This document shows, one piece after another, positions 3,063 to 56,574 of a DNA stretch of 64,000 nt. A model generated the notes under the pieces. It was not told the DNA's origin. It did no database searches and saw only the letters and a program-made list of their open reading frames with translations. Made by a program: the position numbers and the translations under genes. The first letter of the stretch is position 1; every line of letters starts with the position of its first letter. The DNA is from Filomicrobium sp. (GTDB lineage: Bacteria; Pseudomonadota; Alphaproteobacteria; Rhizobiales; Hyphomicrobiaceae): positions 4,000,501 to 4,064,500 of the forward strand of contig CP051234.1 of assembly GCA_017792465.1 (NCBI GenBank), written 5' to 3'.

Positions 3063-3697
3063 TTTGAATTACGTTCTGTCTCGTTTTTTGACAGCTGGAG
3101 GGTAGTCAGCGAAGCTATAACTTGAAGTTAATGAAAACTGCGGCCTTTCCATTTCCTTGTGCTGTGGTGTGTTTTTTAGTGGAATAGATTTCGGGTGATT
3201 GCGTTTTGGAATTCCATGGTTGTTCGCGTCTAAATTTTTATATTTTTCAATGTGTTGTTATTGTTCGTTGGGGCGTCCGAGGGGGCTTTGGGGTCGGGAA
3301 ATAAATATGTCGTTTATAGGTTTCCTGGTTCCGATACGACGTTAACGTCTTAAATTAAGTTTTCAGTAAATTGTCATTGAAATGTCGGGGCTGACTGCGG
3401 CGTTCATAGCGTCGACGTGTCGAGGCAACTCCATTCCAACGTTCTGTCGTGCATGTGATTGGCTCGACGTTGACGCTTAGCACGTTCGTTAGGGGCCTGT
3501 TCACGCTCCCTTGGTTAAAAGAATGAGAATGCAACAGGCGGCTCAAGTCGTGGCCCACGGTTGCGTCGATGATCTGAATGTGGGCCGGCCTGCAAGGCGC
3601 AAGGCGCAAGGCTCAAGGTGCAAGGTGCAAGGCGGGCAGCGGTCAATCAGGTTATCGCAGTCTCAATCAAGGACGCGAGTTGCGGAGCTGGTTCGAC
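3063..3697. other. Long A+T-rich intergenic region
   Basis: This 635-bp gap separates the divergent kinase and methyltransferase genes. Roughly 3100-3370 is clearly richer in A+T than the surroundings and probably holds the promoters for the leftward kinase-HerA unit. The right part holds the 7-bp tandem repeat described separately. A minus-strand frame at 3355-3609 has no ribosome site or recognisable motif and is not called. Confidence 0.5.
3592..3633. repeat. Six tandem copies of a 7-bp repeat, GCAAGGY
   Basis: Copies start at 3592, 3599, 3606, 3613, 3620 and 3627: GCAAGGC three times, TCAAGGT, GCAAGGT, GCAAGGC. They end 64 bases before the methyltransferase start, so they lie in its leader or promoter. 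Heptameric short tandem repeats are known in intergenic DNA of several bacterial groups and vary in copy number by slippage. Confidence 0.9.
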
Positions 3698-4381
3698 GTG
3701 ACGAGTAACATTCTCAGTTCTCCCAAGACCTGGACGCGCGCAAGGGACGGCGTCGACTACCGCTATCTGGCTGGTGCGAAGCATGCCATCGTGGCTCGGC
3801 TGCCTTTCGACCCGACGGCCTCGGTGTTGGAAATTGGATGTGGTCGCGGTGAGACTGGGGCGCTGGCCATCGCGCAAAACCGGGTTCGACGATATGTCGG
3901 CGTCGAAATGCTGCCGGAGCGGGCGGCGCGCGCGCAGGAAGAACTCTCCGAGGTGATCGTCGGCGATGTCGAGGCGATTGAGCTTGAGTTTTTGCCAGCC
4001 GAATTCGATGCGCTGGTTTTATCGGATGTCGTCCAGCAACTGCGTGAACCGGCGGCTCTCCTTCGTCGCCTGCATCGCTTCGTTCGCCCGGGCGGTTTGG
4101 TGCTTGCCAGCTCACCCAACTTCGCCCATTGGAAAGTCATTCGCGAGCTTTTGTTCGGGCGTTTGGCGGAACCGGTGCACAGCGAAGCCGGACAAGCCGA
4201 CTTACACCGCTTCACGCCGGAGAGCTTTGCGGGGCTATTTGAGCGCTCAGGTTATGATGTCGTTTCGTCTGGGCCCGTTCGGCGTTTTTCGCAAAAGCAG
4301 CGTCTCGTGGCCCGCTTGCTCGGCAACCATTTTCAGCACCTGCTGATGGACGAGATCAATATCGAGGCGGTTCGGCGCTAG
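3698..4381 (+). CDS. Class I SAM-dependent methyltransferase (MetW-like)
   Basis: About 227 residues from the GTG at 3698, chosen because a GCGGAG ribosome site lies 11 bases upstream and the longer frame would read through the tandem repeat. Motif I is VLEIGCGRGETG, the acidic residue ending beta-2 is in VGVEM, and motif IV lies around LVLSDVVQQL; 'FVRPGGLVLAS' is the post-III region. These mark a Rossmann-type methyltransferase (Methyltransf_11/MetW-like). The substrate cannot be read from the sequence. The gene stands alone, 305 bp ahead of hprA on the same strand. Confidence 0.8.
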   Translation: MTSNILSSPKTWTRARDGVDYRYLAGAKHAIVARLPFDPTASVLEIGCGRGETGALAIAQNRVRRYVGVEMLPERAARAQEELSEVIVGDVEAIELEFLPAEFDALVLSDVVQQLREPAALLRRLHRFVRPGGLVLASSPNFAHWKVIRELLFGRLAEPVHSEAGQADLHRFTPESFAGLFERSGYDVVSSGPVRRFSQKQRLVARLLGNHFQHLLMDEINIEAVRR

Positions 4382-4686
4382 CGCGTTCCGCCACAGACTC
4401 GGGCTTGGCTTCTTGTTGCTTATTGCCCGACAGAGCGCTTTTCCGTTCAGGCCCCCTGCCCAATCCTCTTGCACAAACGGCCTCTTTTTTCAGGGCATCA
4501 TGACGCCTGCTCTTAAGATGCAAGCGACCGGAATGGTTAATAAAAGAGCCAAAAAGAATGTTGCGCGGCAGCAAAGTCTGCGCAGATGCGGCATCTCCTA
4601 CGAAAGTCTTGTCAGGGGCGCGTGGCTGCGGCAAAAGCGTCTGGACAGATTTGGTAAATAAGAACCTTCAGAGGAGGGATACGTTC
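4382..4686. other. Intergenic region upstream of hprA
   Basis: These 305 bases carry the hprA promoter and leader. A good ribosome site (GAGGAGG at 4672-4678) precedes the ATG. I see no riboswitch-like fold and no further gene. Confidence 0.4.
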
Positions 4687-5646
4687 ATGACGAAGCGTTT
4701 GTTGATCACGCGGCGTTTGCCGGCTGCGGCGGAGGAGCGCGCGAACCGGGATTATACGGTCGTGCAGAATGCCGACGACCACCAGATGTCGGCTGACGAG
4801 ATCATCGAAAAAGCCGCCGACGTCGACGCGCTTCTGATCACGATTACCGACAAGATGCCTGCCGATGTGATCAACCGGTTGCCGGAACACATCAAGATCC
4901 TGTCGACCTTCTCGATCGGCTACGACCATATCGACCTTGAGGCTTCCAAGGCTCGCGGTATTCAGGTCGGCAACGCGCCGCACGGCGTAACGGTGGCGAC
5001 GGCGGAAATCGCGATGCTGCTATTGCTGGGTGCTGCCCGCCGTGCCGGCGAAGGCGAAAAGATGATCCGTACGCGCAGCTGGCCGGGCTGGGCTCCGCTG
5101 CAGCTCGTCGGTCAGCGTCTTGACGGCAAGAAGCTCGGCATTTTCGGCTTCGGTAAGATCGGCCGGGCGCTGGCACAACGCGCGCGCGGGTTCGATATGG
5201 AGATCCACTATCACGATATCGTCCGCGCCAAGCCGGAGGACGAGAAAGGTGCGATCTATCACGACACGCTCGACAGTCTGCTTTCGGTTTCGCAGTTCTT
5301 CTCGATCAACGCGCCGTCGCTGCCCTCGACCCGCTACTTCTTCAACACGGAAGCCATTGAGAAGATGCCGCAGGGCGCAGTCGTCGTGAACACGGCGCGC
5401 GGCGATTTGGTCAAGGACGAGGACTTGATCGCGGCGCTGAAGTCGGGACGCTTGTCGTATGCCGGCCTTGACGTGTTCGCCGGTGAGCCGAACATCAATG
5501 AAGGCTACTACGACCTGGAAAACACGTTCCTGTTCCCGCACCTTGGATCGGCTGCGATCGAGGCACGTAACCAGATGGGCTTTGAAGCTCTCGATAACGT
5601 CGATGCGGCGTTTGCAGGAAAAGACATGCCGTTCAAGCTGGCTTAA
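4687..5646 (+). CDS. hprA: Hydroxypyruvate reductase / glycerate dehydrogenase (serine cycle)
   Basis: A 319-residue D-2-hydroxyacid dehydrogenase that reduces hydroxypyruvate to D-glycerate with NADH. The start is the ATG at 4687, 8 bases after GAGGAGG; the longer frame from 4558 lacks such support. The NAD site is GFGKIGRA (about 154-161). The catalytic trio is Arg238 (NTARGD), Glu267 (FAGEP) and His285 (FPHLGSA). Long identical stretches, such as the GNAPHGVTVATAEIAM region (about 96-110) and the RTRSWPGW region, match my memory of the Hyphomicrobium methylovorum enzyme (structure 1GDH). In methylotrophs it follows serine-glyoxylate aminotransferase, and a homologue of that enzyme lies at 12.0 kb. 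A strong terminator follows. Confidence 0.93.
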   Translation: MTKRLLITRRLPAAAEERANRDYTVVQNADDHQMSADEIIEKAADVDALLITITDKMPADVINRLPEHIKILSTFSIGYDHIDLEASKARGIQVGNAPHGVTVATAEIAMLLLLGAARRAGEGEKMIRTRSWPGWAPLQLVGQRLDGKKLGIFGFGKIGRALAQRARGFDMEIHYHDIVRAKPEDEKGAIYHDTLDSLLSVSQFFSINAPSLPSTRYFFNTEAIEKMPQGAVVVNTARGDLVKDEDLIAALKSGRLSYAGLDVFAGEPNINEGYYDLENTFLFPHLGSAAIEARNQMGFEALDNVDAAFAGKDMPFKLA

Positions 5647-6836: not shown

Positions 6837-8177
6837 TCAGGTGGATTCAGCCAGATGCTGAGCCAGCCAACGGGCGGTTCGTAACAGTCGTGCATCGTCC
6901 TGGCGCTGTCCGACCAACTGAACGCCAACGGGCAGGCCGTTGATCTCCATGAGCGGAATGCTGACGGCGGGCATGCCCAAGTAGGTCCACAGGCCATTGA
7001 AGATCGGCGAACCGGTGATGCCTTCTTCGAGCTTTGGCGCCGGACCGGGCGCGGCAGGCGTCAGGATGACGGTATAGGTTTCGAATAGTTCGCCGAGGCC
7101 CGCGTAACCTTTGTCGCGCGAAGCGATGGCTTCGATGTAATCGCGTACGGGAACCTTGGCGCCTTCATCGAGACGGGCATTCAGCCCATCGGACAAAGCC
7201 GAGCGGTCCTTGTCCTGGAGCGGGCCGTAATAGGCGGCGTTTTCGGCAAGCTGCACGATGCGCTGCCATTCCAGGACATGATCGAGCCCGGGGACGGTGA
7301 TTTCATCGCAAATGCGGCCGAGGTGATCGCACAGCTCCTGGAATGCTTCGCGCATTGCGGGATCGGCGTATTCGTCCCAGGCCGGCGTCTTCACGAACGC
7401 GAAGGTCGGCGTCATGGGTGGTTCGCTGCCGGCAATCTCGCTGAGATGGGGTTGGCTGCGCGGGTAGCTGACAGGATCAGCGGGATCGTGCGCCGACATG
7501 CAGTCGGTCAGTAGTGCCAAATCGTCGATCGAGCGGGCGAACATGCCGACCGTGTCGAGCGTTGGGGATTGCATCAGCACGCCGCGACGCGAGATGAGGC
7601 CGAGCGTCGGTTTGAAGCCATAGATCCCGCAATATGAGGCCGGGCGCAGAACCGAACCTGCGGTTTGCGAGCCCAGGGCGGCGGGCACCATCAGATCGCC
7701 GACGGCGGCGGCCGAGCCGGCCGACGAGCCGCCTGGCGACCGGTCGAGCGCCAGTGGGTTGCGGGTTTTCGCCGGAGTGAGCAATGCCAGCTCGGTGGTA
7801 ACCGTCTTGCCGAGGATGATGGCGCCGGCGGATTTCAAAGCATCGACGCAAGCGGCATCTTGTTTGCGCCCGTAGTCCTCGTAAAGCGGGCAGCCCATCC
7901 GGGTTGGATAGTCGACGGTATCGAAGATGTCCTTGATCGCGATGGGCACGCCATGCAAGGGCCCGACACCTCGCCCGAAACCGCGGACGGTATCGGCCCG
8001 GCGGGCCTGGTCGAGGGCCTGGTCGGCATCGATTGAGGCCCAGGCGCCGACTTCCCCGTCGCGCGCTTTGATGCGGGCGAGGAAAGCCGTGACCAGTGCT
8101 TCGGATGTGGTCCGGCCATCGGCGATGGCGGCTGCGGCTTGAGATACCGTGAGCTGGACCAGTTCTTCAGATTTCAA
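6837..8177 (-). CDS. Amidase-signature hydrolase
   Basis: 446 residues of the amidase signature family, which hydrolyses carboxamides through a Ser-cisSer-Lys triad. Lys82 (IAIKDIF), the GGSSAGS motif (149-155) and the nucleophile Ser175 (QTAGSV) are all present. The start appears to be a TTG 18 bases after the dctM stop, with GGAG about 10 bases upstream, so the gene is co-transcribed with the TRAP genes. Related members act on glutamyl-tRNA, allophanate, fatty acid amides or other amides; the substrate is unknown. The operon context suggests it releases the transported acid from an amide, or acts on a transported amide. Confidence 0.88.
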   Translation of the reverse strand: MKSEELVQLTVSQAAAAIADGRTTSEALVTAFLARIKARDGEVGAWASIDADQALDQARRADTVRGFGRGVGPLHGVPIAIKDIFDTVDYPTRMGCPLYEDYGRKQDAACVDALKSAGAIILGKTVTTELALLTPAKTRNPLALDRSPGGSSAGSAAAVGDLMVPAALGSQTAGSVLRPASYCGIYGFKPTLGLISRRGVLMQSPTLDTVGMFARSIDDLALLTDCMSAHDPADPVSYPRSQPHLSEIAGSEPPMTPTFAFVKTPAWDEYADPAMREAFQELCDHLGRICDEITVPGLDHVLEWQRIVQLAENAAYYGPLQDKDRSALSDGLNARLDEGAKVPVRDYIEAIASRDKGYAGLGELFETYTVILTPAAPGPAPKLEEGITGSPIFNGLWTYLGMPAVSIPLMEINGLPVGVQLVGQRQDDARLLRTARWLAQHLAEST

Positions 8178-8195
8178 CGTGCGTTGCTCCGGTCG

Positions 8196-9566
8196 TCAGT
8201 GTCCATAGAAATATTCAGGCAGGAAGAGTGCAATGCCTGGGAAGGTGTAGAGCAGGATCATCGAGATCAGCACCATCACCAGATAAGGCATCGTGCCTGA
8301 GAAGATCTGCGTCAATTGCACATGGGGCGGCGCTATCCCTTTTAGGTAATAGGCCGCCATGGCCATGGGCGGTGTTAAGAACGATGTCTGCAGGTTGAGC
8401 GCGATCAGGATGCCAAAGAATAGTGGATCGATATTGAAGTGGTTCAAGAGTGGTAAGAAGATCGGCACGAAGATGATGATGATCTCGGACCATTCCAGCG
8501 GCCAGCCGAGCAGGAAGATGATGAGCTGCGCCAAGATGAGGAACATGATCGGCGACAGGTCGAGCGCGATGACGAAGTCCTTCACCAGCTGCTCTCCACC
8601 CAGATAGGAGAAGACCGAGGAGAAGGTCCAGGAGCCGACGAAGAGCCAGCAGACCATGGCTGAGGTTCTGACCGTCAGATAGACGGATTCCTTTAAGCGA
8701 TCCCAAGTCAATGCGCGGTAGGCGGCTGCCAGGACCAGGCCGCCGAGTGAGCCGACGGCTGCAGCTTCTGACGGGGTCGCCAAGCCGAAAAGGATTGCGC
8801 CGAGGACCGAGAGGATCAGCAATGCGAGCGGCACGAAGGACGTCAGCAGCAGCAGATAAAGTTTCCATCCCGAAATGTCGGGCATGTCTTCGTCGCGCGG
8901 TTTGGGTGCGACCTGCGGCTGAATGGCGGCGCGGCCGACGACGTAAATGAGGTAGAGGCCGGCGAGCATGAAGCCCGGTAGGAAGGCCGCCGCATACAGC
9001 TTGACGACGGAGACGTTGGTTGTCGCCGAATAGACAATCAGCATGATCGACGGCGGAATGAGAATGCCGAGGCAGCCGCCGGCGCAAATCACACCTGAAG
9101 CATACGAGATGTCATAGCGGGCTTTGAGCATTTGCGGGAATGCCAGGAGCCCCATCAGCGTGACGACGGCGCCGACGATCCCGGTCGCGGTGGCGAACAA
9201 CGCGCAGGTGATGAGCGCTGCCACCGCCATGGAGCCGGGCAGATTGCGGGCAGCGACCTGCAGCGTCGTGAACAATCGGTCGACGATGTTGGCGCGTTCG
9301 ACGATGTAGCCCATGAACAAGAAGAGCGGGATTGCCGTCAACACGTCGGACGACATCACCGAGTACGTCTGATTGACGAGCAAGTCGAAGATGCGGTTGT
9401 CGAGGTAGGATAAAAGGTTGGAGGTGTCGATGCGCGTTGCATCGAAATAGGCGTAGTAGCCGAAGATTACGCCCATCGCCATCAAGGTGAAGGCGATCGG
9501 GAAGCCGAGCAGCACGACAAGTATGAAGAGCGTCAGCATCAAAATGGCGACTTGAGGGTCCGTCAT
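8196..9566 (-). CDS. TRAP transporter large permease subunit (DctM-like)
   Basis: 456 residues of almost continuous hydrophobic helices (about 12), the channel subunit of a sodium-driven tripartite transporter. I start it at the ATG at 9566, where it overlaps the dctQ stop as ATGA; the open frame to 9713 adds an arginine-rich, non-membrane N-terminus inside dctQ. Landmarks are GFPIAFTLM near the N-terminus, the CAGGCLGILIPPS region and LNLQTSFLTPP near the C-terminus, all usual in DctM. Confidence 0.93.
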   Translation of the reverse strand: MTDPQVAILMLTLFILVVLLGFPIAFTLMAMGVIFGYYAYFDATRIDTSNLLSYLDNRIFDLLVNQTYSVMSSDVLTAIPLFLFMGYIVERANIVDRLFTTLQVAARNLPGSMAVAALITCALFATATGIVGAVVTLMGLLAFPQMLKARYDISYASGVICAGGCLGILIPPSIMLIVYSATTNVSVVKLYAAAFLPGFMLAGLYLIYVVGRAAIQPQVAPKPRDEDMPDISGWKLYLLLLTSFVPLALLILSVLGAILFGLATPSEAAAVGSLGGLVLAAAYRALTWDRLKESVYLTVRTSAMVCWLFVGSWTFSSVFSYLGGEQLVKDFVIALDLSPIMFLILAQLIIFLLGWPLEWSEIIIIFVPIFLPLLNHFNIDPLFFGILIALNLQTSFLTPPMAMAAYYLKGIAPPHVQLTQIFSGTMPYLVMVLISMILLYTFPGIALFLPEYFYGH

Positions 9567-10177
9567 TTGCCGTCTGCTCCTTTGTCGGCTTCGTAATCTT
9601 GTTGGAGGCGTCGATGGTCTTCGGCCTGGTGCTGCAGGACGGTTTCGAGTTCTTCGACATCTTCCAGTTTGCCAGGCCATTGCCCGGTCTTGAGACAGAT
9701 GAGGCAGCGGCAAACCTGGGCGGTGCCTTGAACGAAGAGCAAGGCTCCGGCGGCCGGGATGATCAGCTTGAACTGCCAGATGGGAATATTTGCAGGGCTC
9801 ATGGAGCTGACTTCGCCCCAGCGGAAGGAGCGTTCGGAGAATTTCCAGCCGGCCAGCACGAGGGCGATGACGCCGGGGAAGAAGAAGATGAAGTACAAGA
9901 ACAGTTCAAGGCGCGCCTGGGTCTTGGGCGACCAGGTCCGGAAGAAGACGTCGCCGCGGACGTGGCTGTCGCGGGCAAGAGCGTAAGCGCCGCCCATCAT
10001 GAACAGCGTGCCGTACATCATGTAAGAGATGTCAAAAGCCCAGGCGGTTGGGTCGCGCAGGACGTAGCGCACGAACACCTCGTAACCGACCCCGAAAATC
10101 ATCACCATGATGCACCACGCAAACGCGTGACCAACCCAGGTCGAAAATTTGTCGACCGCTTCGATATAGCGCTGCAC
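9563..10177 (-). CDS. TRAP transporter small permease subunit (DctQ-like)
   Basis: 204 residues with four membrane helices, typical of the DctQ subunit that pairs with DctM. The first codon is GTG. The last 45 residues are an unusually long, charged, Gln/Glu-rich cytoplasmic tail, probably a coiled coil. The gene sits 230 bp after dctP, and its stop overlaps the dctM start. Confidence 0.88.
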   Translation of the reverse strand: MQRYIEAVDKFSTWVGHAFAWCIMVMIFGVGYEVFVRYVLRDPTAWAFDISYMMYGTLFMMGGAYALARDSHVRGDVFFRTWSPKTQARLELFLYFIFFFPGVIALVLAGWKFSERSFRWGEVSSMSPANIPIWQFKLIIPAAGALLFVQGTAQVCRCLICLKTGQWPGKLEDVEELETVLQHQAEDHRRLQQDYEADKGADGK

Positions 10178-17869: not shown

Positions 17870-18361
17870 TTATTTCTTTTCGGGTTTTTCGCCGAGCCCG
17901 ACATTGCGCAGGATGTCCGGCAGGACTTCGTTAATGCGGACGGAATCGAGGTCGTCCTTGTGAAGGACCTCGGCCGCGCCGGCTTCGATCAGCTCGATCC
18001 GGCGTTTTCGGGTGGCCAGGCCGCTGACGACGATGATCGGTCCCTCAAAGCCCGTGTGGCGCAGATAGGGGATCGATTCATGGGCGCGGTCTGAGGAGAG
18101 GTCCAGATTGTCATCCAGCAGGATGAGCTGGGGCGTCGATTTCATGACTTCGTCGATCGCGCTCGACAAGGTGTTGGCTTCGCGGACATTGACCTCGTAG
18201 CCATACATCAGATGCAGGGTCGCTTTTAGACGCTTGAGGTCGAGACTGCAGTCGTCGACGACGAGGATGTTGGTGAGCTTGGGGAGATCCTGGCGGGCCT
18301 TGTTCAGGCCGCTCTTCTTATCGAGGAAATCTCCGCCAGAGGTTGACGTTGGCTCGGCCAT
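17870..18361 (-). CDS. Single-domain response regulator
   Basis: 163 residues from the ATG at 18361, preceded by AAGGAG. After a 30-residue flexible lead comes one receiver domain: acidic pair Asp36-Asp37 (VVDD), probable phosphoacceptor Asp83 (LILLDD), Ser113 (VVSG) and Lys135 (LHKDD). There is no output domain. It lies 243 bp downstream of the histidine kinase gene, same strand, and is the natural partner for that kinase, acting by protein contact as CheY does. Confidence 0.87.
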   Translation of the reverse strand: MAEPTSTSGGDFLDKKSGLNKARQDLPKLTNILVVDDCSLDLKRLKATLHLMYGYEVNVREANTLSSAIDEVMKSTPQLILLDDNLDLSSDRAHESIPYLRHTGFEGPIIVVSGLATRKRRIELIEAGAAEVLHKDDLDSVRINEVLPDILRNVGLGEKPEKK

Positions 18362-18604
18362 TGCCCTGATCTCCTTGGTTAAACCCGCAATGTTTATCGT
18401 TTTTGATCGTGTGCGTTTTTTTAAAAACTGGACCACCAAATCTTGATGTTATGAGCTTTGGGTTCTCAAAAGTTCCAGCTTGCAGTCGGTGAGTATCGGG
18501 TTTGCACGCGTCAGCAAGCCGCCGCATGTCATTGACCGATCAGTTGTTGCAGAAAATATTGAGCGCCGCAATCGGGCTATCGAAACGCATTGGGTTCAAT
18601 GCGA

Positions 18605-19816
18605 TTAACCTTTCTGGCTCATCAAAAGCGGCCAACGCACAGTGAACTTGGTTCCACGATGCGTTGCGGGATCTGAATGCAGTTCAACAGCGCCGCCGAC
18701 CGCTTCCAAAGTGCGTTGCACGAAGGCGAGGCCCATTCCGTGTGAGGCTTCTAGGCTTGTGCTCTTTCCTGCCGGGTCATCGGCAAATGTACGGAATGGA
18801 AAGAAGATCGCCTTCTGGTGGGCTTTGGGGATGCCGGGTCCATCGTCGGAAATTTCGATCAATAGCTCATCATTGTTCTGTGACGCATTGATGCCGATCC
18901 GACCGGTGTCGGGGCGGTCATGATGCTTGATGGCGTTGCCGATCAAATTGCGCAGGACTAGGTCGAGCGGGGCGATGTAGGTTTCCAGCTCGGGCCAGTC
19001 GCCGGTGACTTCTATGGCCATGCCCTTGGGTTGCGGCAGGGATGAAATGACGGCGCTGATCAACGCACGGCTGTCGACCTTGTCGATGATGATCTGCTGG
19101 CGGCCGAGGCTCGCGTAATCAAGCAGCTGGGTCAACATCGACGACATCCGGCGAGATTGAGATTTCAAATCCTCGCAAGCTGTACGGGCTTGGGTCTGAT
19201 CGTTTTGATCGAGCGCCGTTTCAATATCGTCTGCGAGATAACGCAACGAGCGCATCGGCGCTTTGAGATCATGAGAGACGATGCTGGCGAAATCTTCCAG
19301 ATCGCGGTTGCAGAGTTCGAGTTCGCGATAGGCGTCATCGAGAGCCAACTTCTGTTGCTCGATTTGCTCCAGGAGAATATGGCGGTCGCGCTGCATTCGA
19401 GCGACGGCAAGGTCATTGCCCGAACGACTTCCAGCGCGCGTCAGGAACAGCAGGAATTGCGTCGTATTGATCAGCTGCCGATCGCTTTCGGCGACGTCGT
19501 GTTCCGGGATTTTGTCTTGATGGCGAAAGACATGGATGTCGACGCGCGGCGGCTGGTCGGGTCCGTCTTTGACAAGAAGGATTCCTGGGAGCTCAAAGCT
19601 GCTCATCGGATCAGCGGGCAGGGCGCGGATGTCGTCTTCGTAGTCAGCCAATATCGGCAGGCCGGCGTAGAGGGGTTCGCCGACTGCAAGTCCGTCGCTT
19701 AGTTCTCCGAAACGAGCGTTGACGATGAAATCGTCGTCGAGCCAGGCCATGCCATAAAGACCGGTGCGCGCCAAGAGGTAGCCTGCGCTCATCAACGGTG
19801 GAAGGGCTGGGGGCAT
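18605..19816 (-). CDS. Histidine kinase of the OmpA/GTPase module
   Basis: 403 residues from the ATG at 19816 (AGGAG 11 bases upstream); a TTG at 19840 that overlaps the GTPase stop is the alternative. The N-terminal 150 residues form a PAS-like sensor (LYGMAWLDDDFIV...FGELSD). A coiled-coil segment (about 145-180) leads to an H-box of the SHDLKAPMR type and then to HATPase_c with NLIGNAIKHH, SDDGPGI and HGMGLAFV. There are no membrane segments, so it is cytoplasmic. It directly follows the GTPase gene and precedes a lone receiver protein. Confidence 0.88.
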   Translation of the reverse strand: MPPALPPLMSAGYLLARTGLYGMAWLDDDFIVNARFGELSDGLAVGEPLYAGLPILADYEDDIRALPADPMSSFELPGILLVKDGPDQPPRVDIHVFRHQDKIPEHDVAESDRQLINTTQFLLFLTRAGSRSGNDLAVARMQRDRHILLEQIEQQKLALDDAYRELELCNRDLEDFASIVSHDLKAPMRSLRYLADDIETALDQNDQTQARTACEDLKSQSRRMSSMLTQLLDYASLGRQQIIIDKVDSRALISAVISSLPQPKGMAIEVTGDWPELETYIAPLDLVLRNLIGNAIKHHDRPDTGRIGINASQNNDELLIEISDDGPGIPKAHQKAIFFPFRTFADDPAGKSTSLEASHGMGLAFVQRTLEAVGGAVELHSDPATHRGTKFTVRWPLLMSQKG

Positions 19817-19836
19817 GTCGTGCAGCGCTCCTGATC

Positions 19837-20352
19837 TCAAAGTCCGCGCCGAACAATTGCGTCGGCGGCAGAAGCGAAGGCCTCGTTGACGCCGTCTCCA
19901 TTCATCGCACTTGTCAAATAGACCGGGGTTGGGGCGCTTGTCGTTTGCGCGTGCAATACCTGACTGCGGCCTTCATCGGGTAGCAGATCGGACTTGTTGA
20001 GGAGGACGCAAGCGGGTCGGCCGGGCATTGCTTGCGTCCAGCCCTTGAGGAGCTGATCTTTTGCTTCCAGCGTCGCGGGCCGCGTGACATCTGCGACAAC
20101 CAGGGTGGCTGCAGCATTCTTCAGATAGACACTTGAAAAAATCGTCTGGCCGAAGTTGCCGTCGGTATCCCAGATCAGAAGTGTCAGTGCGGGACGCTTG
20201 TCGGTTTCGGGGAGATGGTGGGTGTAGATCTCGACGTTGAGTGTCGGCATGTAGTCGGTGCGAAAGCGGCCGTGAACGTAGCGGTTCACCAGAGATGTTT
20301 TGCCGACGCCGATCTCTCCCAACAGCATGATCTTGCGCGATGGCCCGGGCAC
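19837..20352 (-). CDS. Ras/Rab-like small GTPase
   Basis: 171 residues of a compact Ras-superfamily G domain. G1 is GEIGVGKTS (12-20), G2 probably Thr37 (MPTLNVE), G3 WDTDGNF (61-67), G4 NKSD (119-122) and G5 TSA (147-149). In G3 the usual DTAGQE is DTDGNF: the catalytic Gln is replaced by Asn, predicting slow intrinsic hydrolysis and need of a partner. There is no lipidation tail. The GTG start shares one base with the TAG stop of the upstream OmpA-like gene (TAGTG), so the two are coupled. Prokaryotic Ras-like proteins include MglA and the 'Rup' groups; this one is closer in motif style to Rab. Confidence 0.9.
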   Translation of the reverse strand: MPGPSRKIMLLGEIGVGKTSLVNRYVHGRFRTDYMPTLNVEIYTHHLPETDKRPALTLLIWDTDGNFGQTIFSSVYLKNAAATLVVADVTRPATLEAKDQLLKGWTQAMPGRPACVLLNKSDLLPDEGRSQVLHAQTTSAPTPVYLTSAMNGDGVNEAFASAADAIVRRGL

Positions 20353-22529
20353 TACCGCAATTCTCCGACAAACCCCAGTTCGAATTCAACGCGCCGGTTC
20401 GGGCTCGAGTCGCCGGTGACGTTGGAGATGTCCTTGCCGTCGATACGTCCGATGGGGATCAAGAGATCCTCCTTGACGCCACGGCTTTGTAGTGCGCGCT
20501 TGACGGCTTCTGCGCGATCCTTGGACAGCGTTGTGTTTTGCTGGGAGCCGCCTTTTTCGTCGGTGAAGCCAACGATGCGCACCGGCAGATCAGCTTCGTT
20601 GATCAGCTTCGCCAGTTCGTCGAAATGGCTGCTGGCGCGGACGGGGTCGCGGTAGCGGGTGCCATTGGAGAAAAAGATGGCGTGGTCGCGGATCCAGTCG
20701 GCGAGTTTTTCGCGCGGGGTCGGCAGAACTTTTTCGACGACAACGGGTGCCGGTTTGACGCTGGCGGCCTGGGCCAGAGCAACCGCGAGCGTTGCAAACT
20801 GTTCGGTCTGGACGGCCATCGCTTCGGCTTCTGCAACGAGGCCGTTGGCGTTTTCTCCCTGCGTCTTTACCGACTGGGGTCGGAAGCTGGCGGCGTCCGG
20901 GTCGAGCAGCGTGGCAAGCGCTCCGGCTGTGCGAGCAATCCTGTCGCGCATCGCTGCAAGCTTGCTGACCACGTCGCGGGCGCCGGCGTTGCCGTTCGAA
21001 GCTGTCTTCACAAGCGATTGTAGGTCGGTGCGCACGTCGCCGACGGTCTTGTTTGCGGCGGCAACGATTGCACGGGAGTTTTGGTCTTTGACGACTTCGC
21101 TTAAGTGCTGAAGATCGGCGGGAATTCCGTCGAGACGGTGAAGCGTGCGTTCGGCGCTGCGTTCGAAGGCTTCACGCTCCAGGCGCTGCTGGAGCGTATT
21201 GAAGTCTTCGCGCAAGCCTTCGATTTGCGGCGTCGTATCCGGACCGGTGGCGACGACGGTCAATTCATCATTGACGATCGTGCCATCCAGATTGGTTTTG
21301 AGCTTGGAGATGATTTCGTCTTTGGCGTCCCAGGACGGGGCCAGTCCGGCCAGCGAAACCTCGGTGCCGTAATCGGCAACAGACAGGCGCACCGGATATC
21401 CCCGCATCGATTGGGTCTCAGCAATAACTGCATTGGCGCGCTCTCTGACCCATTCGGTGGTTGCGTATTTATAGGTGCTCCACGAGAGCCAACCGACGAG
21501 CAAGAGACCGGCCATCCAACCCAGCCCTTTGAGGATCAGCCAGCCGGTGTTGTCGTTCTCAACGCTTTGGCGCATGTCATCGATGCGGGTCTCGATGCGC
21601 TCGGCGGTCTCGGCCAGAAGCGTCCCGTGGCGTTGGCCGACTGTCGGCTCTTTGGAGGCGAGATCTTCGAAGTCGATCTGCTGGCGCTCGTGCGTTGACA
21701 GAAATTCTTCGTCGATCAAGCGCTCGACGGCTGCGTTCGAATAGCCGGAGCAGCGTGCAGCCAGCAGATAGAGCGGAGAGGCGCGCAGGTAGACGTTGGA
21801 GGTGTTGAGATCGATGTGGCGCAGCGAAGAGGTGTCATCGTTGAAGGCTTCGAGGGAGAACTCGTTGATGGCGGTGAGAATGCCGCTCATCAGATGATCG
21901 CGCTCGGCGCTATTTTCGACATCCGGCCACCGCGCCAGCAGTTCGCCTGAGCCGCGGCGGATGAGGTAGATCTCTTCGACTTTCAGAGCCTGAGATTGTG
22001 CAATCGCGAGTTCTGCGACCGACCGGCCTGTCATCATGCTCTTGATGCGCAGCATCGTCGGGTTGGCGGTCATCTGCGCATTTATGCGATCGGTCAGATC
22101 GCGGATGGCGCTGGCGACATAGGCCTGCACCAGCCGTCCGGTGATGGGATAGAGAGCTTCGACCAGTTCGTCCTGGCTCTCGTTGATCTCGCGCTTGATG
22201 GTGCGCACGACGAGCGGCGCGATGGCTTCGGACAACTGGTCGTGGCGGTCGACTTCGGCCTGACTGAGGGCGCGGTCAAGGACGTCTGCGACGCTGGCCT
22301 TGAACCGTTCTTCAGTGCCGGCCCGATCAAAGACCGACGACAACTGCGTCTTGAGTTCGGTCCTGAACTTGGCTTCGTCGATGGCGAGCTTGTTGAGGTC
22401 GCGTGCCAATGCGGCGCGCTGATCGGTTCCGACCTTGGCGACGGCTTCGATGCGGCGCTGAAGGTCGTTCAGGGCGCGCGCTTCGGTTTCGAACAGAATT
22501 TCTTTGAGTTTTGTAACGCCTTGCGACAT
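20352..22529 (-). CDS. One-TM protein: cytoplasmic longin/roadblock-like region, periplasmic BON-like and OmpA domains
   Basis: 725 residues. The first 180 are helical and coiled. Residues 184-262 (IYLIRRGSGELLAR..., then GILTAINEF and VYLRASPLYLLAA) have the strand-helix layout of longin/roadblock folds, which bind small GTPases. A single membrane helix lies at about 330-350. Outside it, residues 358-426 resemble a BON domain, a helical stretch follows, and an OmpA peptidoglycan-binding domain fills about 605-720, with Asp657 (GFTDEKGG) and Arg712-Arg713 (PNRRVEFE) placed as in meso-diaminopimelate-binding members. It could couple cell-wall contact outside to the GTPase encoded next. Domain calls other than OmpA and the helix are inference. 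Confidence 0.85.
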   Translation of the reverse strand: MSQGVTKLKEILFETEARALNDLQRRIEAVAKVGTDQRAALARDLNKLAIDEAKFRTELKTQLSSVFDRAGTEERFKASVADVLDRALSQAEVDRHDQLSEAIAPLVVRTIKREINESQDELVEALYPITGRLVQAYVASAIRDLTDRINAQMTANPTMLRIKSMMTGRSVAELAIAQSQALKVEEIYLIRRGSGELLARWPDVENSAERDHLMSGILTAINEFSLEAFNDDTSSLRHIDLNTSNVYLRASPLYLLAARCSGYSNAAVERLIDEEFLSTHERQQIDFEDLASKEPTVGQRHGTLLAETAERIETRIDDMRQSVENDNTGWLILKGLGWMAGLLLVGWLSWSTYKYATTEWVRERANAVIAETQSMRGYPVRLSVADYGTEVSLAGLAPSWDAKDEIISKLKTNLDGTIVNDELTVVATGPDTTPQIEGLREDFNTLQQRLEREAFERSAERTLHRLDGIPADLQHLSEVVKDQNSRAIVAAANKTVGDVRTDLQSLVKTASNGNAGARDVVSKLAAMRDRIARTAGALATLLDPDAASFRPQSVKTQGENANGLVAEAEAMAVQTEQFATLAVALAQAASVKPAPVVVEKVLPTPREKLADWIRDHAIFFSNGTRYRDPVRASSHFDELAKLINEADLPVRIVGFTDEKGGSQQNTTLSKDRAEAVKRALQSRGVKEDLLIPIGRIDGKDISNVTGDSSPNRRVEFELGFVGELR

Positions 22530-22621
22530 AGGGAATTTGGCTCTTCGGACTCGCGTTACAGGGCAGGCAGGCGCACTGGTTGCCGCCGTTGGAAAAAGGG
22601 CCTTGGATGGGGCTGCAAAAC

Positions 22622-22930
22622 CTAGATCCGGGACAGGTTCTTAACGCGCTGGCCCAGGTCGGCAATGCCCTTTGACAATTCATCGAATGCTGCGCGCTGG
22701 TTGCCGGCCACTTCGGCCGATAGCGCGTCGAGACGCGCCTGCATCGCGTCGAGGCGGTGATAAACATCCGTTTGCAGGTTTTGCAGATGGGTTTCGAGCG
22801 CGAGTAGGCGCTCATCGGTTCGCCGCAAGTCTTCGCCGAGCAGGAGTTCGCGAACCTGCTCCATCTTTTCATCCGCGATCTTGCGAGTGGGCGCTCCGGT
22901 TCTTAGCGCGTCAAGGGATGTGGCCGTCAT
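22622..22930 (-). CDS. Small coiled-coil protein heading the OmpA/GTPase unit
   Basis: 102 residues from the ATG at 22930. The middle (about 20-90) is a heptad-rich coiled coil (LLALETHLQNLQTDV, LDAMQARLDALSAEV). There is no signal peptide or membrane helix. It lies 92 bp upstream of the OmpA-like gene on the same strand and probably starts the operon. No family is recognised; a scaffold role is a guess. Confidence 0.65.
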   Translation of the reverse strand: MTATSLDALRTGAPTRKIADEKMEQVRELLLGEDLRRTDERLLALETHLQNLQTDVYHRLDAMQARLDALSAEVAGNQRAAFDELSKGIADLGQRVKNLSRI

Positions 22931-23364: not shown

Positions 23365-23688
23365 TCAGCCGATGAGGGCGTCAACCTTGCCGTACTTCTC
23401 AGCAAGGAGATAATAGAAGGTGACGCGGTTCTTGCGCTGGTCGGCCTTCATGGCTTCGCAGACTTCCTTGATCGCACCATCAAGCGCTTTGTCATCGTCG
23501 GTCAGAGCCAGTTTCTTCTTGAGCCAGCTATCGCGCACGCGAGCCAGTTCGTCCTTGCTGGAGCAGGATACGAGCGAGGCATCTCTGCTGCGCAATGCGA
23601 TGCCGAGATGTTTGACGATCCCGGCGACTGCGGCTTCGTTGACGTTCTTGGCATAGCGGGCGACGTCATCGACGTATTCCTTGGACAT
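23365..23688 (-). CDS. DUF2853 family protein
   Basis: 107 residues starting at the ATG at 23688, which has GGGAGAG upstream. The sequence pattern (YAKNVNEAAVAGIVKHLG, then SRDASLVSCSS, then VTFYYLLAEKYGK) is that of DUF2853, a small helical cytoplasmic family of proteobacteria without known function. The gene is alone between the GTPase module and a TRAP binding protein gene. Confidence 0.85.
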   Translation of the reverse strand: MSKEYVDDVARYAKNVNEAAVAGIVKHLGIALRSRDASLVSCSSKDELARVRDSWLKKKLALTDDDKALDGAIKEVCEAMKADQRKNRVTFYYLLAEKYGKVDALIG

Positions 23689-23837
23689 TTCGGTGCTCTC
23701 CCTTTTTGGCAAGACCGGCTTCTGGCTGACCCCAAGCGATTGATCGATTGGGGTCAATTCTGGCCGGTTCGTTATGTTGTTAGCCTACGTATCTTTCACA
23801 AGATTCCAGCGAATGTTCAAATAACTGAACGAGTTGT

Positions 23838-26390: not shown

Positions 26391-27014
26391 TTACCAGTTG
26401 AAGGTATATTTGTTCGATGCGCTGTTCGCAGCACTGTCGAAGCCGCCGGTCTTGAAGCGGTTCCAGGTCACGATGACTTTTGCGCCGACGCTTGTGCGCT
26501 TGTAGAGGTCGATAACGTCCTCGTTATACATGCGGATGCAACCGGATGATGCAGCCTTGCCGATCGTCCAAGGCGCGTCGGTTCCGTGAATGCGATAGGT
26601 GCTGGAGCCAAGGTAGAGTGCGCGAACACCAAGCGGGTTCATCGGATGGCCGCCTGGGACCCAGCTCGGCAGGCGCGGGTTTTTCTTGAGCATCGAAGGC
26701 GTCGGACGCCAATCCGGATTAACGCGCTTCATCGAAACGGAGGTTACTCCCTGCCAACGAGCGTCCTCACGTGGAATGGCGATCGGGTAGCTCAGAGCTT
26801 TGCCGCGGGACACGATATTGTACAGACGGCGGTCGCCGAAGCTGACAATGATCTGGCCAGCCGAATACTTCTTGTCGAAAGCGACGGTCTGACGGCCACC
26901 GCCCCATTCGCTGCTGCCGCCCCACATTGTCTGGGCGTTCGCGGTCGTCGCCATGACGGCCAGGCCGGTAAAGAGGATCGGCAGAATACGCAAAATGCGG
27001 AAAAAGACGGACAT
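26391..27014 (-). CDS. L,D-transpeptidase (YkuD domain)
   Basis: 207 residues: a signal peptide (cleaved after TTANAQ, about 28), a linker, then a YkuD catalytic domain with the hallmark HGTDAPWTIG...SSGCIRM. The Cys is the nucleophile that forms 3-3 peptidoglycan cross-links or attaches proteins to the wall. It acts in the periplasm. Hyphomicrobiales encode many such enzymes, consistent with walls rich in L,D cross-links. Confidence 0.93.
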   Translation of the reverse strand: MSVFFRILRILPILFTGLAVMATTANAQTMWGGSSEWGGGRQTVAFDKKYSAGQIIVSFGDRRLYNIVSRGKALSYPIAIPREDARWQGVTSVSMKRVNPDWRPTPSMLKKNPRLPSWVPGGHPMNPLGVRALYLGSSTYRIHGTDAPWTIGKAASSGCIRMYNEDVIDLYKRTSVGAKVIVTWNRFKTGGFDSAANSASNKYTFNW

Positions 27015-53648: not shown

Positions 53649-54015
53649 GAATTCTTAGAAGTATATGTCCGGACAAGGAACTTTCTTTGTGGAGATGGAG
53701 GCTTGACCCTTTTATCGCCACTGTCACAAGGGCATCAGCATGGCGGCTCTTTTTGTCTCGCGGTTTTGAGGCTTTGTGCTGAAGTGTGCGGAAACTGACT
53801 GTTGCATCGCAGTACCGCTCAGCCGACATTGGGCGCATTTAGAGTCGCGTTAACGAAGCGTCGTGAAACGCCTGTTATTTCAGATGGGCGAAAGCGCGAC
53901 GACGTGATGCCACATTGAAGGCTAAGTTAGTCTGGGGCATCTGGCGCCTTTTGCAGTGCAGCAAAGTTGCGCTACTAACTCGAACGATGAAATCCGCGTG
54001 CCGGGCCGAGGGTTG
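53649..54015. other. Intergenic region between amiC and mrcA
   Basis: 367 bases with no supported gene or clear terminator. It should contain the mrcA promoter. Confidence 0.35.
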
Positions 54016-56574
54016 ATGAAATCTCCAGTTCTTCCACCTCCTGCGCCGAAGAAAAAGGCCAAGAAGCGCCGTAGCCGCAGTCTTCTCCTGAGTTTCTTGG
54101 GATTTGGCTTCGCTGCTTCGGTGGTGCTTTTTGTCGTCGGCTCTGCAGTTGCCGGCTATATGCTGATGCGCGCGTCCGAGGATCTGCCGAATTACGAGAA
54201 ACTGGCCGAATATTCACCGCCGGTGATGACCCGCATCCACGCCAACGACGGCTCGCTGATTGCCGAATTTGCGCGTGAGAGGCGGATCTTCGTGCCGATC
54301 AACACGGTTCCGAAGCGCGTTATCGCGGCCTTCCTGTCAGCTGAAGACAGCCGGTTCTACGAGCACGGCGGGCTCGACTTCCAGGGCATTGCGCGTGCCG
54401 TCATCAAACTCGTTCTCGACAAGGTTCAGGGCCGCCGTTCGCGCGCTCAAGGTGCCTCGACGATTACCCAGCAGGTCGCCAAGAACTTCCTGTTGACGAG
54501 CGACAGGACCCTCGATCGGAAATTGAAGGAAGCGATCCTGGCGATCCGCATTGAGCGGACGTTTACGAAGGACAAGATCCTCGAGCTTTATCTCAACGAG
54601 ATTTATCTGGGCATCGGCTCTTATGGTGTTGCCGCGGCCAGCCTCAATTATTTCGACAAGGAACTGCAGGATCTGTCGATCGAAGAGGCGGCCTATCTGG
54701 CGGCTTTGCCGAAGGCGCCCAACAACTATCATCCGATCCGCCATACCGAAAAAGCAACTGCGCGGCGGAACTGGATCATCGGGCAGATGTATGACAACGG
54801 CTATATCTCGAAAGAGGAGGCCGAAGCGTCGCGGGCCAAGCCGCTGACCGTCAACCTGCGCAAGTTCGGGGCGCATATTTTTGCCGCCGATTTCTTCGCC
54901 GAAGAGGTACGCCGGGCGCTGTTGTCGGAATATGGCGAGAGCAAGCTTTATGGTGGCGGGATGTCAGTTCGTACGACGCTCGATCCGAAGCTGCAGCGGT
55001 ATGCGCGCAAGGCGCTGATCGATGGTCTGGTCGCGTTCGACCGCCGCAAAGGCTGGCGCGGAGCCTATAAGCAGATCGACATCACGGGCGACTGGGGCAA
55101 AACGCTATTTGAGGTCAACGCGCCGAGCGATTTGCAGCCCTGGCGTCTGGGCGTTGTCCTTAATAGCGATGACAAGAACGCGGTTGTCGGGCTCAAACCA
55201 CGCAAGGGCCGGGACGGGAAACTCGAAGAAAAGCGCGAAGCGGTTCGGCTGGACTTGAAGCATGTCGAGTGGGCCAAGAAAGTTGGCGGTGGCGGCAAGC
55301 CGAAAGCGGTGAAAGACGTGCTCAGCGAGGGCGATGTCGTTTTCGTATCGCCGGATGACGCGCTCGACCCGACCGGCGATTGGTCGCTGATGCAAATTCC
55401 TGAGGTCGGCGGCGGTATCGTTGCGATGGACCCGCATACTGGTCGTGTGCTGGCCGTCGTCGGAGGCTTCTCATTCGACATGAGCCAGTTCGACCGCGCG
55501 ATTCAGGCCAAGCGGCAGCCGGGCTCGGCGTTCAAGCCGTTCGTTTATGCGGCCGCTCTTGATAACGGCTACAAGCCAACCAGCATCGTGCTCGATGCGC
55601 CCATCGAAATCGAGCAGGGGCCGGGTCAGGACGTCTGGAAGCCTGAGAACTACAACAAGAGCAAGTCCTACGGGCCGACGACGCTGCGTATCGGGATCGA
55701 GAAGTCACGTAACCAGATGACGGTGCGGCTGGCTCAGGATATGGGCATGCCGCTCATTACCGAATATGCGAAGCGTTTTGGGATCTATGACGACCTCCTG
55801 CCGGTTCTGTCGATGTCGCTGGGCGCCGGCGAAACAACGCTTCTGCGCATGGCGACCGCCTACTGCATGTTGGCGAACGGCGGCAAGGAAGTGAAGCCGA
55901 CCTTGATCGACCGCATCCAGGACCGTTGGGGCAAAACGATGTGGCGGCACGATCAGCGGCCATGCGACGGCTGTAAGGCCGATTCCTGGCAGCATCAACG
56001 TGAGCCGGAAATTCCTGACGACAGGCGGCAGATCATCGACCCGCACTCGGCTTTTCAGATGACGTCGATTCTGCAAGGCGTTGTTGAGCGGGGTACGGCG
56101 CGCAGTCTTAAAAAACTTGGTGTGCCACTGGCCGGTAAGACAGGTACGACGAACGAAGAGAAAGACGCTTGGTTCATGGGCTATTCGCCGGACCTCGTGG
56201 CCGGTGTGTTTGTCGGCTATGATACGCCGCGAGCGATGGGCAAAGGCATGACAGGCGGCCAGGTGGCGGCGCCGATTTTCGGTGAATTCATGAAAATGGC
56301 GCTCGACGGCAAGCCGATTACGCCATTCCGCCAGCCGCCGGGCATCGTTCTGGCGCGCATCAACCCGAAGACCGGCCTGCGGGCGCAGCCTGGCGACAAG
56401 ACCGCTATCATGGAGGCTTTCAAGCCTTTCGAAGGGCCGGATGATGAATATAACATCATCGGTATCGGCGAAGATGGCGATGGCGGCGCTTTTGGCGGGC
56501 AGGCGACGGCAACTAGTTCGGCCGCCGAACGGCCGCCACGCAGCGTCGGCAACGGCTCTGGCGGGCTTTGGTAG
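54016..56574 (+). CDS. mrcA: Penicillin-binding protein 1A
   Basis: 852 residues from the ATG at 54016; a GTG at 53956 would add 20 residues. A basic cytoplasmic tail (KKKAKKRRSR) and one membrane helix (about 25-50) anchor it. The GT51 domain has the catalytic Glu in AEDSRFYEHGGLD and QGASTITQQVAKN. The transpeptidase domain has SAFK (PGSAFKPF), SRN (EKSRNQM) and KTGTT. An insertion-like OB region lies between (about 360-480). It polymerises and cross-links peptidoglycan in the periplasm. Confidence 0.96.
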   Translation: MKSPVLPPPAPKKKAKKRRSRSLLLSFLGFGFAASVVLFVVGSAVAGYMLMRASEDLPNYEKLAEYSPPVMTRIHANDGSLIAEFARERRIFVPINTVPKRVIAAFLSAEDSRFYEHGGLDFQGIARAVIKLVLDKVQGRRSRAQGASTITQQVAKNFLLTSDRTLDRKLKEAILAIRIERTFTKDKILELYLNEIYLGIGSYGVAAASLNYFDKELQDLSIEEAAYLAALPKAPNNYHPIRHTEKATARRNWIIGQMYDNGYISKEEAEASRAKPLTVNLRKFGAHIFAADFFAEEVRRALLSEYGESKLYGGGMSVRTTLDPKLQRYARKALIDGLVAFDRRKGWRGAYKQIDITGDWGKTLFEVNAPSDLQPWRLGVVLNSDDKNAVVGLKPRKGRDGKLEEKREAVRLDLKHVEWAKKVGGGGKPKAVKDVLSEGDVVFVSPDDALDPTGDWSLMQIPEVGGGIVAMDPHTGRVLAVVGGFSFDMSQFDRAIQAKRQPGSAFKPFVYAAALDNGYKPTSIVLDAPIEIEQGPGQDVWKPENYNKSKSYGPTTLRIGIEKSRNQMTVRLAQDMGMPLITEYAKRFGIYDDLLPVLSMSLGAGETTLLRMATAYCMLANGGKEVKPTLIDRIQDRWGKTMWRHDQRPCDGCKADSWQHQREPEIPDDRRQIIDPHSAFQMTSILQGVVERGTARSLKKLGVPLAGKTGTTNEEKDAWFMGYSPDLVAGVFVGYDTPRAMGKGMTGGQVAAPIFGEFMKMALDGKPITPFRQPPGIVLARINPKTGLRAQPGDKTAIMEAFKPFEGPDDEYNIIGIGEDGDGGAFGGQATATSSAAERPPRSVGNGSGGLW

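Follow-up and report, generated by a model that had tools for sequence, protein, structure and literature searches.

A Five-Gene Locus in the Filomicrobium Genome

The stretch of Filomicrobium sp. DNA analysed here (64,000 nucleotides, hereafter the window) comes from the 4.47 Mb, single-contig genome of a soil/water bacterium. Open reading frame analysis places five co-oriented genes at 17870-22930, all on the minus strand, which encode a coiled-coil protein, an OmpA-roadblock membrane protein, a Ras-like GTPase, a histidine kinase and a stand-alone receiver (Table 1). These are the five genes described in the original prediction, and the Pfam matches to OmpA, Ras, HisKA/HATPase_c, and Response_reg are all clear. 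The stop codon of the OmpA-roadblock gene and the start codon of the GTPase gene have one base in common (TAGTG, 20350-20354), as had been read from the sequence at the outset. The stop codon of the GTPase gene overlaps the TTG start of the kinase gene (TTGA), with a 4-base overlap of these two genes also seen in five relatives, and an intergenic gap of 243 bases separates the kinase and receiver genes. Scans of the operon for sigma-70 promoters and terminators gave nothing above shuffled sequences.

Directly upstream of the module, on the same strand and ~430 bases away, is a gene for a DUF2853 protein, 23365-23757 (-). The window also holds an L,D-transpeptidase (YkuD) gene 3.5 kb from the module, 26391-27014 (-), and a class A penicillin-binding protein gene 31 kb from it, 53956-56574 (+).

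Table 1. Genes, domains and motifs of the five-gene module (window positions).
Feature	Position	Strand	Size or residues	Evidence or remark
Coiled-coil protein gene	22622-22930	-	102 aa	Cytoplasmic; ORF and relatives
Docking-like motif MEQVRELLLG of the coiled-coil protein	22835..22864	-		Pattern conservation
OmpA-roadblock membrane protein gene	20352-22529	-	725 aa
Membrane-protein N-terminal motif LKEILFETE	22482..22508	-		Same type as the coiled-coil protein motif
Roadblock/longin-fold domain (predicted)	21672..21989	-	Residues 181-286	AlphaFold2, Foldseek, VIA-align, weak Pfam
Single TM segment	21483..21539	-	Residues about 331-349	Kyte-Doolittle maximum 1.63 over 19 residues
BON-like stretch (weak)	21252..21458	-	Residues 358-426	Pfam BON E 0.014; between TM segment and OmpA domain
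OmpA peptidoglycan-binding domain	20424..20636	-	Residues 632-702	Pfam PF00691 E 3.3e-12
GTPase gene	19837-20352	-	171 aa
Histidine kinase gene	18605-19840	-	411 aa from TTG	Alternative ATG at 19816
PAS-fold N-terminal domain of the kinase (predicted)	19433..19807	-	Residues 12-136	AlphaFold2 pLDDT 89.9
Linker-helix residues of the kinase	19391..19399	-	R148-M149-Q150	Site of the "invariant" Gln of relatives
Stand-alone receiver gene	17870-18361	-	163 aa from ATG	189 aa from upstream TTG

The Membrane Protein Combines an OmpA Domain With a Predicted Roadblock/Longin Domain

The membrane protein consists, in order, of a helical N-terminus, the predicted roadblock/longin domain, the TM segment, the BON-like stretch, a coiled coil and the OmpA domain. 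The expectation of a one-TM protein with an OmpA domain was borne out, with one hydrophobic segment identified and an OmpA score of 47.1 bits against a cut-off of 27.2. The Asp and Arg of the predicted peptidoglycan-binding site are retained (GFTDEKG...LSKDRAEAV). The BON-like stretch falls below the Pfam curated cut-off in the window, and some relatives match BON or BON_like.

In an AlphaFold2 model built from 13 aligned sequences, residues 171-282 are arranged as helix-strand-strand-helix-strand-strand-strand-helix, and the predicted topology of residues 181-286 fits the beta-beta-alpha-beta-beta-beta-alpha roadblock/longin fold (Z up to 11.1 over ~100 residues). Confidence within the domain was mostly at pLDDT 74-88, with an overall mean of 69 and weaker flanking helical parts. 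The best structural match (Foldseek, VIA-align) was a Streptomyces roadblock/LC7 protein (3kye, Z 11.1 over 102 residues), and others included TRAPP (2j3t, Z 10.7), the MglB-MglA complex (6h5b, Z 10.6), Ragulator (5x6u, Z 10.3), and Mon1-Ccz1 (Z about 10). The leading matches are roadblock or longin proteins, and many of them are GTPase-binding.

Sequence comparison of the domain across 34 relatives placed two Pfam families at the top, the MON1/FUZ/HPS1 longin family (Fuz_longin_1; 3 of the 34, best E 0.0017) and Robl_LC7 (one of the 34, E 0.022), with both below the Pfam cut-off. These matches are weak, yet they are independent of the model and point in the same direction as the predicted fold. 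The domain in the window itself gave no match to Robl_LC7 (PF03259), and no canonical protein of that family was identified at E 0.01 in the whole host genome. A search of PDB sequences with a 34-member profile of the domain produced no match at E 10, and the fold assignment consequently draws on structure prediction together with the Pfam matches. From these data we predict a roadblock/longin fold for residues 181-286, in agreement with the original proposal, in which the domain had a shorter extent (184-262). The fold by itself cannot tell a guanine nucleotide exchange factor (GEF) from a GTPase-activating protein (GAP) or a scaffold.

Of 111 relatives, 98 have a detected OmpA domain. In Bacteroidota, five partners (L097, L099, L101, L102, and L104; about 7800-8780) are roadblock/longin-type proteins of 269-278 aa that have neither a TM segment nor an OmpA domain, and in eight further relatives, some of which are truncated where a contig stops, no OmpA domain was detected. 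Since these Bacteroidota partners lack both elements, wall contact cannot be a universal input to the module; wall anchoring is a widespread yet dispensable one. Wall sensing by the module is a plausible role, which we infer.

The GTPase Has the Features of the Group 1 Rup Type

Rup GTPases have been proposed as the closest bacterial relatives of Rab, Ras and Rho. The GTPase encoded in the window is a single-domain member of the Ras superfamily (Pfam Ras E 1.1e-21, residues 7-166), is Rab-like by sequence, and has Rabs as its closest solved structures. It is the one small Ras-type GTPase of the host genome, other matches lying in larger proteins with scores near the cut-off. Its G3 motif, WDTDGN, keeps the Asp and lacks the equivalent of Gln61, and a Gln at the catalytic position was found in none of the 105 relatives with a readable G3 motif. 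Retention of the G3 Asp and absence of the catalytic Gln are the criteria for Group 1 Rup proteins (PMC4316618), and the length of 171 aa is inside their range of 150-240 aa. By its G3 features and gene neighborhood we class the protein as a GTPase of the Group 1 Rup type.

The neighborhood of Group 1 Rup genes was described by Wuichet and Søgaard-Andersen (2014; PMC4316618) as consisting of a gene for a coiled-coil protein, a gene for a protein with a conserved domain, an inner-membrane helix and an OmpA domain, and an output gene for a kinase or GGDEF/EAL protein. The layout in the window is therefore not new in itself, as its first four genes match that neighborhood. To that description the present analysis adds the roadblock/longin prediction, class III cyclases among the outputs, the predicted PAS fold of the kinase N-terminus, the stand-alone receiver and a motif found in both the coiled-coil and membrane proteins (see below). 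In the 2014 description, the partner domain was left as a "conserved domain of unknown function" and Rup proteins were concluded to be uncoupled to MglB homologs (PMC4316618). The predicted fold revises this conclusion at the structural level, and the putative roadblock/longin identity of the Rup partner domain is newly recognized here. We found no experimental study of Group 1 Rup proteins in the open-access literature searched, and no report in the literature searched that ties a Rup GTPase to a regulator. The module is genuine, conserved and apparently uncharacterised, and of a published kind.

The OmpA-Roadblock and GTPase Genes Are Nearly Inseparable

Searches of the order with a membrane-protein query (residues 1-350) and a GTPase-alignment query returned the identical 13 of 121 genomes. 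Scanning the whole collection with the N-terminal part of the membrane protein identified 260 relatives, the nearest being in Filomicrobium and Hyphomicrobium-type genomes, and the best 80 of these loci were read. Among the 76 of the best 80 that contain a GTPase gene, the GTPase gene comes directly after the membrane-protein gene, with both on one strand, in 75, and the sole exception is a divergent arrangement in Rhodomicrobium (L085). A survey that started instead from the GTPase gave the order coiled coil, membrane protein, GTPase in 29 of 30 loci, the thirtieth being at a contig end. Where the two genes adjoin, the OmpA-roadblock gene has a coiled-coil gene upstream in 70 of the 75 loci from the first survey (again from the best 80 of 260) and in 29 of 29 from the second; no separate coiled-coil gene was found in L096, L098, or L105. 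The GTPase is unevenly distributed, with 8 of 385 genomes carrying it in a sample of the class and 52 of 398 in a sample of the phylum. The core gene order is found repeatedly in both Pseudomonadota and Bacteroidota, which indicates that the arrangement is not due to chance. A strain of Mesorhizobium loti (L071), the species from which the reference Rup of 2014 came (PMC4316618), also has the three-gene core.

Several loci depart from the common arrangement. The GTPase gene is divergent from the coiled-coil/OmpA pair in L085, L023, and L024, and the operon order is thus not absolute. At L103 (the same locus as L158) tandem membrane roadblock-type genes (225-2882 and 3435-5108) flank one coiled-coil gene and precede a single GTPase gene. 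L086 has coiled-coil and OmpA-roadblock genes (7424-9635) and no recognizable GTPase gene within the 16.7-kb locus; its GTPase is possibly encoded elsewhere in the genome.

A Motif Common to the Coiled-Coil and Membrane Proteins

The coiled-coil protein gave a match to HSBP1 just under the cut-off, which we set aside as a reflection of coiled-coil composition. A motif of the type (V/L)(K/R)xLLFG is common to the coiled-coil and OmpA proteins. The coiled-coil proteins carry sequences of the type IDQ(I/V)RELLFG, and the pattern [LIVM][KR]x[LIVM][LIVM][FLIVM] occurs in 102 of 104 of them against 4.7 expected from shuffles; in the membrane proteins the sequence LKxLLFxxE sits close to the N-terminus, and the pattern falls within the first 60 residues in 100 of 111 against 3.4 expected. 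As shuffles ignore common ancestry, these counts measure conservation within each family and not independent origins. The occurrence of the motif in both proteins may mean that they bind the same partner, or that the two segments share one origin.

Interchangeable Output Enzymes Behind One Front End

The kinase is soluble, with no strong hydrophobic segment, and is organized as a PAS domain, a long linker helix, HisKA (E 1.4e-6), and HATPase_c (E 1.2e-22). In the model of its N-terminus, which covers the kinase and no other output class, the fold is predicted to be that of a PAS domain (VIA Z 10.0 to a PAS domain, with PAS/PYP as the top matches), in line with the cytoplasmic PAS-like kinase that had been anticipated. 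The receiver (Response_reg E 5.1e-11) is encoded after the kinase in Filomicrobium/Hyphomicrobium-type loci and in loci labeled "Devosia," and in one Geminicoccaceae locus the kinase gene is followed by a gene for a sigma-54 activator with a receiver.

The slot of the kinase is occupied in other lineages by a class III cyclase (Guanylate_cyc, PF00211) or by a GGDEF-EAL protein, and in loci of Mesorhizobium and Rhodoblastus there is no evident adjoining output gene. The kinase is thereby ruled out as a fixed partner. Cyclase genes lie directly 3′ of the Rup-type GTPase gene in L152 (6882-8087), L166 (5611-6642), L168 (6911-7933), and L175 (5068-6141), the cyclase-bearing loci coming from several proteobacterial genomes, some within and some beyond the class of the window. 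A class III cyclase output is absent from the Group 1 Rup description in the part of PMC4316618 used here. As a consequence of the substitutions and the loci with no adjoining output, GTPase homologs commonly occur without the kinase, and hardly ever without the OmpA-roadblock gene. Of the fixed gene co-occurrence originally expected, the part concerning the OmpA-roadblock and GTPase genes stands, and the part concerning the kinase does not. Phosphotransfer, originally proposed as the end of the GTPase signal, is one of several outputs.

The many relatives without an adjoining kinase gene, along with the 243-base gap between the kinase and receiver genes, are what might be expected if an ordinary two-component system, acting alone, simply lay beside an unrelated OmpA/GTPase pair. 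We regard this as highly improbable, because the kinase gene runs into or directly adjoins the GTPase gene, both in the window and in relatives from several lineages, including Bacteroidota, and because one kinase has an N-terminus clearly related to those of the cyclases that share the slot. A profile of the kinase N-terminus matches the N-termini of cyclases and GGDEF proteins weakly; the kinase at L159 has an N-terminus of the cyclase type (53.5 bits), which argues that front parts have been swapped between output enzymes. Kinase, c-di-GMP enzyme and nucleotide cyclase interchange behind one front end, and this is a modular signaling system.

The same observations bear on a second alternative, in which the proteins form a structural envelope complex (e.g., a polar or division-site landmark) that the GTPase places as MglA does in Myxococcus, with the enzyme merely recruited. 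There is a precedent in the MglA modules that set polarity (e.g., PMC9481161), anchoring by OmpA would fix a position on the wall, and the coiled-coil protein is conserved. However, the exchange of outputs in one slot, together with the L159 kinase, suggests regulation rather than passive recruitment, and the Bacteroidota partner has neither TM segment nor OmpA domain, leading us to consider a structural complex distinctly improbable.

A Glutamine Proposed to Act in Trans

An invariant Gln in the N-terminal region of the output protein has been proposed to act in trans on the Group 1 Rup GTPase (PMC4316618). Of 57 output proteins from three enzyme classes, 50 have a Gln in one of two neighboring columns within the linker helix. 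Neither column has a Gln in the window, in its five closest relatives or in L044. The window and the five close relatives have Arg in the main column; in the window this is Arg148, with Gln150 two residues on. The register of the Gln moves by one residue between lineages, and a one-residue gap could shift that of the window, where the Gln is out of register. The site is in the linker helix that follows the PAS domain, outside the PAS core. A register shift is possible, and the proposal of a Gln acting in trans is weakened without being disproved.

An extension of the published proposal would give the role of GAP to the output enzyme's linker helix, which would supply the Gln, instead of to the roadblock domain; the kinase would then double as effector and GAP, leaving the roadblock domain only to anchor the GTPase at the membrane. 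The absence of a catalytic-position Gln from all 105 GTPases and its presence in the linker of 50 of 57 outputs speak for such an arrangement; the shifting register, the Arg in the main column in the clade of the window, the location of the residue outside the PAS core, and the loci with no evident adjoining output gene speak against it. On balance we think it unlikely, although less so than a structural complex.

A Proposed Pathway

The reading we prefer, and hold to be probable, is that the locus encodes a Group 1 Rup module in which a wall-anchored roadblock/longin protein regulates the GTPase, which in turn drives an adjacent, interchangeable enzyme. Its basis in direct observation is the gene order, the co-occurrence, the predicted folds, the conservation of the motif and the exchange of output genes. 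The membrane protein would be a single-pass inner-membrane protein whose OmpA domain, in the periplasm, ties it to peptidoglycan and whose roadblock/longin domain lies in the cytoplasm. This domain would bind the GTPase, keep it at the membrane and set its nucleotide state, as a GEF, GAP or scaffold, like MglB, Ragulator, and Mon1-Ccz1. The coiled-coil protein, by way of its LLFG-type motif, probably joins the membrane protein at, or competes with it for, a common partner. Once switched, the GTPase would act on the adjoining enzyme at its PAS and linker-helix region: here, the histidine kinase would phosphorylate the neighboring receiver, and in other lineages a c-di-GMP enzyme or class III cyclase would be driven by this front end. 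We infer the binding, the direction of regulation, the control of the enzyme, the phosphotransfer and the state of the cell wall as the physiological input.

A wider formulation is more tentative, and we give it somewhat less than an even chance: that these loci represent a modular bacterial G-protein pathway, with a peptidoglycan-tethered longin/roadblock domain governing a Rab-like GTPase and this GTPase in turn gating exchangeable enzymes (PAS histidine kinase, c-di-GMP enzyme or class III cyclase), with the state of the wall as input in the OmpA-bearing lineages. If true, the pathway would be a bacterial counterpart both of Ragulator/Mon1-type platforms and of G-protein-controlled adenylyl cyclase. 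The predicted roadblock/longin domain is a candidate regulator for the whole Rup group, and whether it acts as GEF or GAP becomes directly testable.

Relation to Other GTPase Systems

In human cells, Rab and Rag GTPases are handled by roadblock/longin domains. Ragulator, TRAPP, and Mon1-Ccz1 resemble the predicted arrangement here in being membrane-held roadblock/longin domains that bind and control Ras-superfamily GTPases (structural Z about 10); they differ in being multi-subunit and in having no wall anchor or bacterial enzyme output. The likeness suggests that the GTPase-longin partnership of eukaryotic trafficking and nutrient signaling may also occur in Gram-negative bacteria, fused to a wall anchor.

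The MglA/MglB system of Myxococcus and Thermus similarly pairs a Ras-like GTPase with a roadblock protein and has links to response regulators. However, MglA is without the conserved G3 Asp (PMC4316618), which the GTPase here possesses (WDTDG), and, unlike MglB, the putative roadblock domain shares one polypeptide with a TM segment and an OmpA domain and falls under the Robl_LC7 sequence cut-off.

The actinobacterial conservon CvnA-D is likewise an operon with a histidine kinase, a roadblock protein, a protein of unknown function and a small GTPase. The conservon kinase is a membrane protein with a C-terminal LPxR motif and the roadblock protein is separate, whereas here the kinase is soluble and the predicted roadblock domain is part of the membrane protein; the conservon GTPase is of the MglA type, in contrast to the Rup-type GTPase and additional receiver gene of the Filomicrobium locus.
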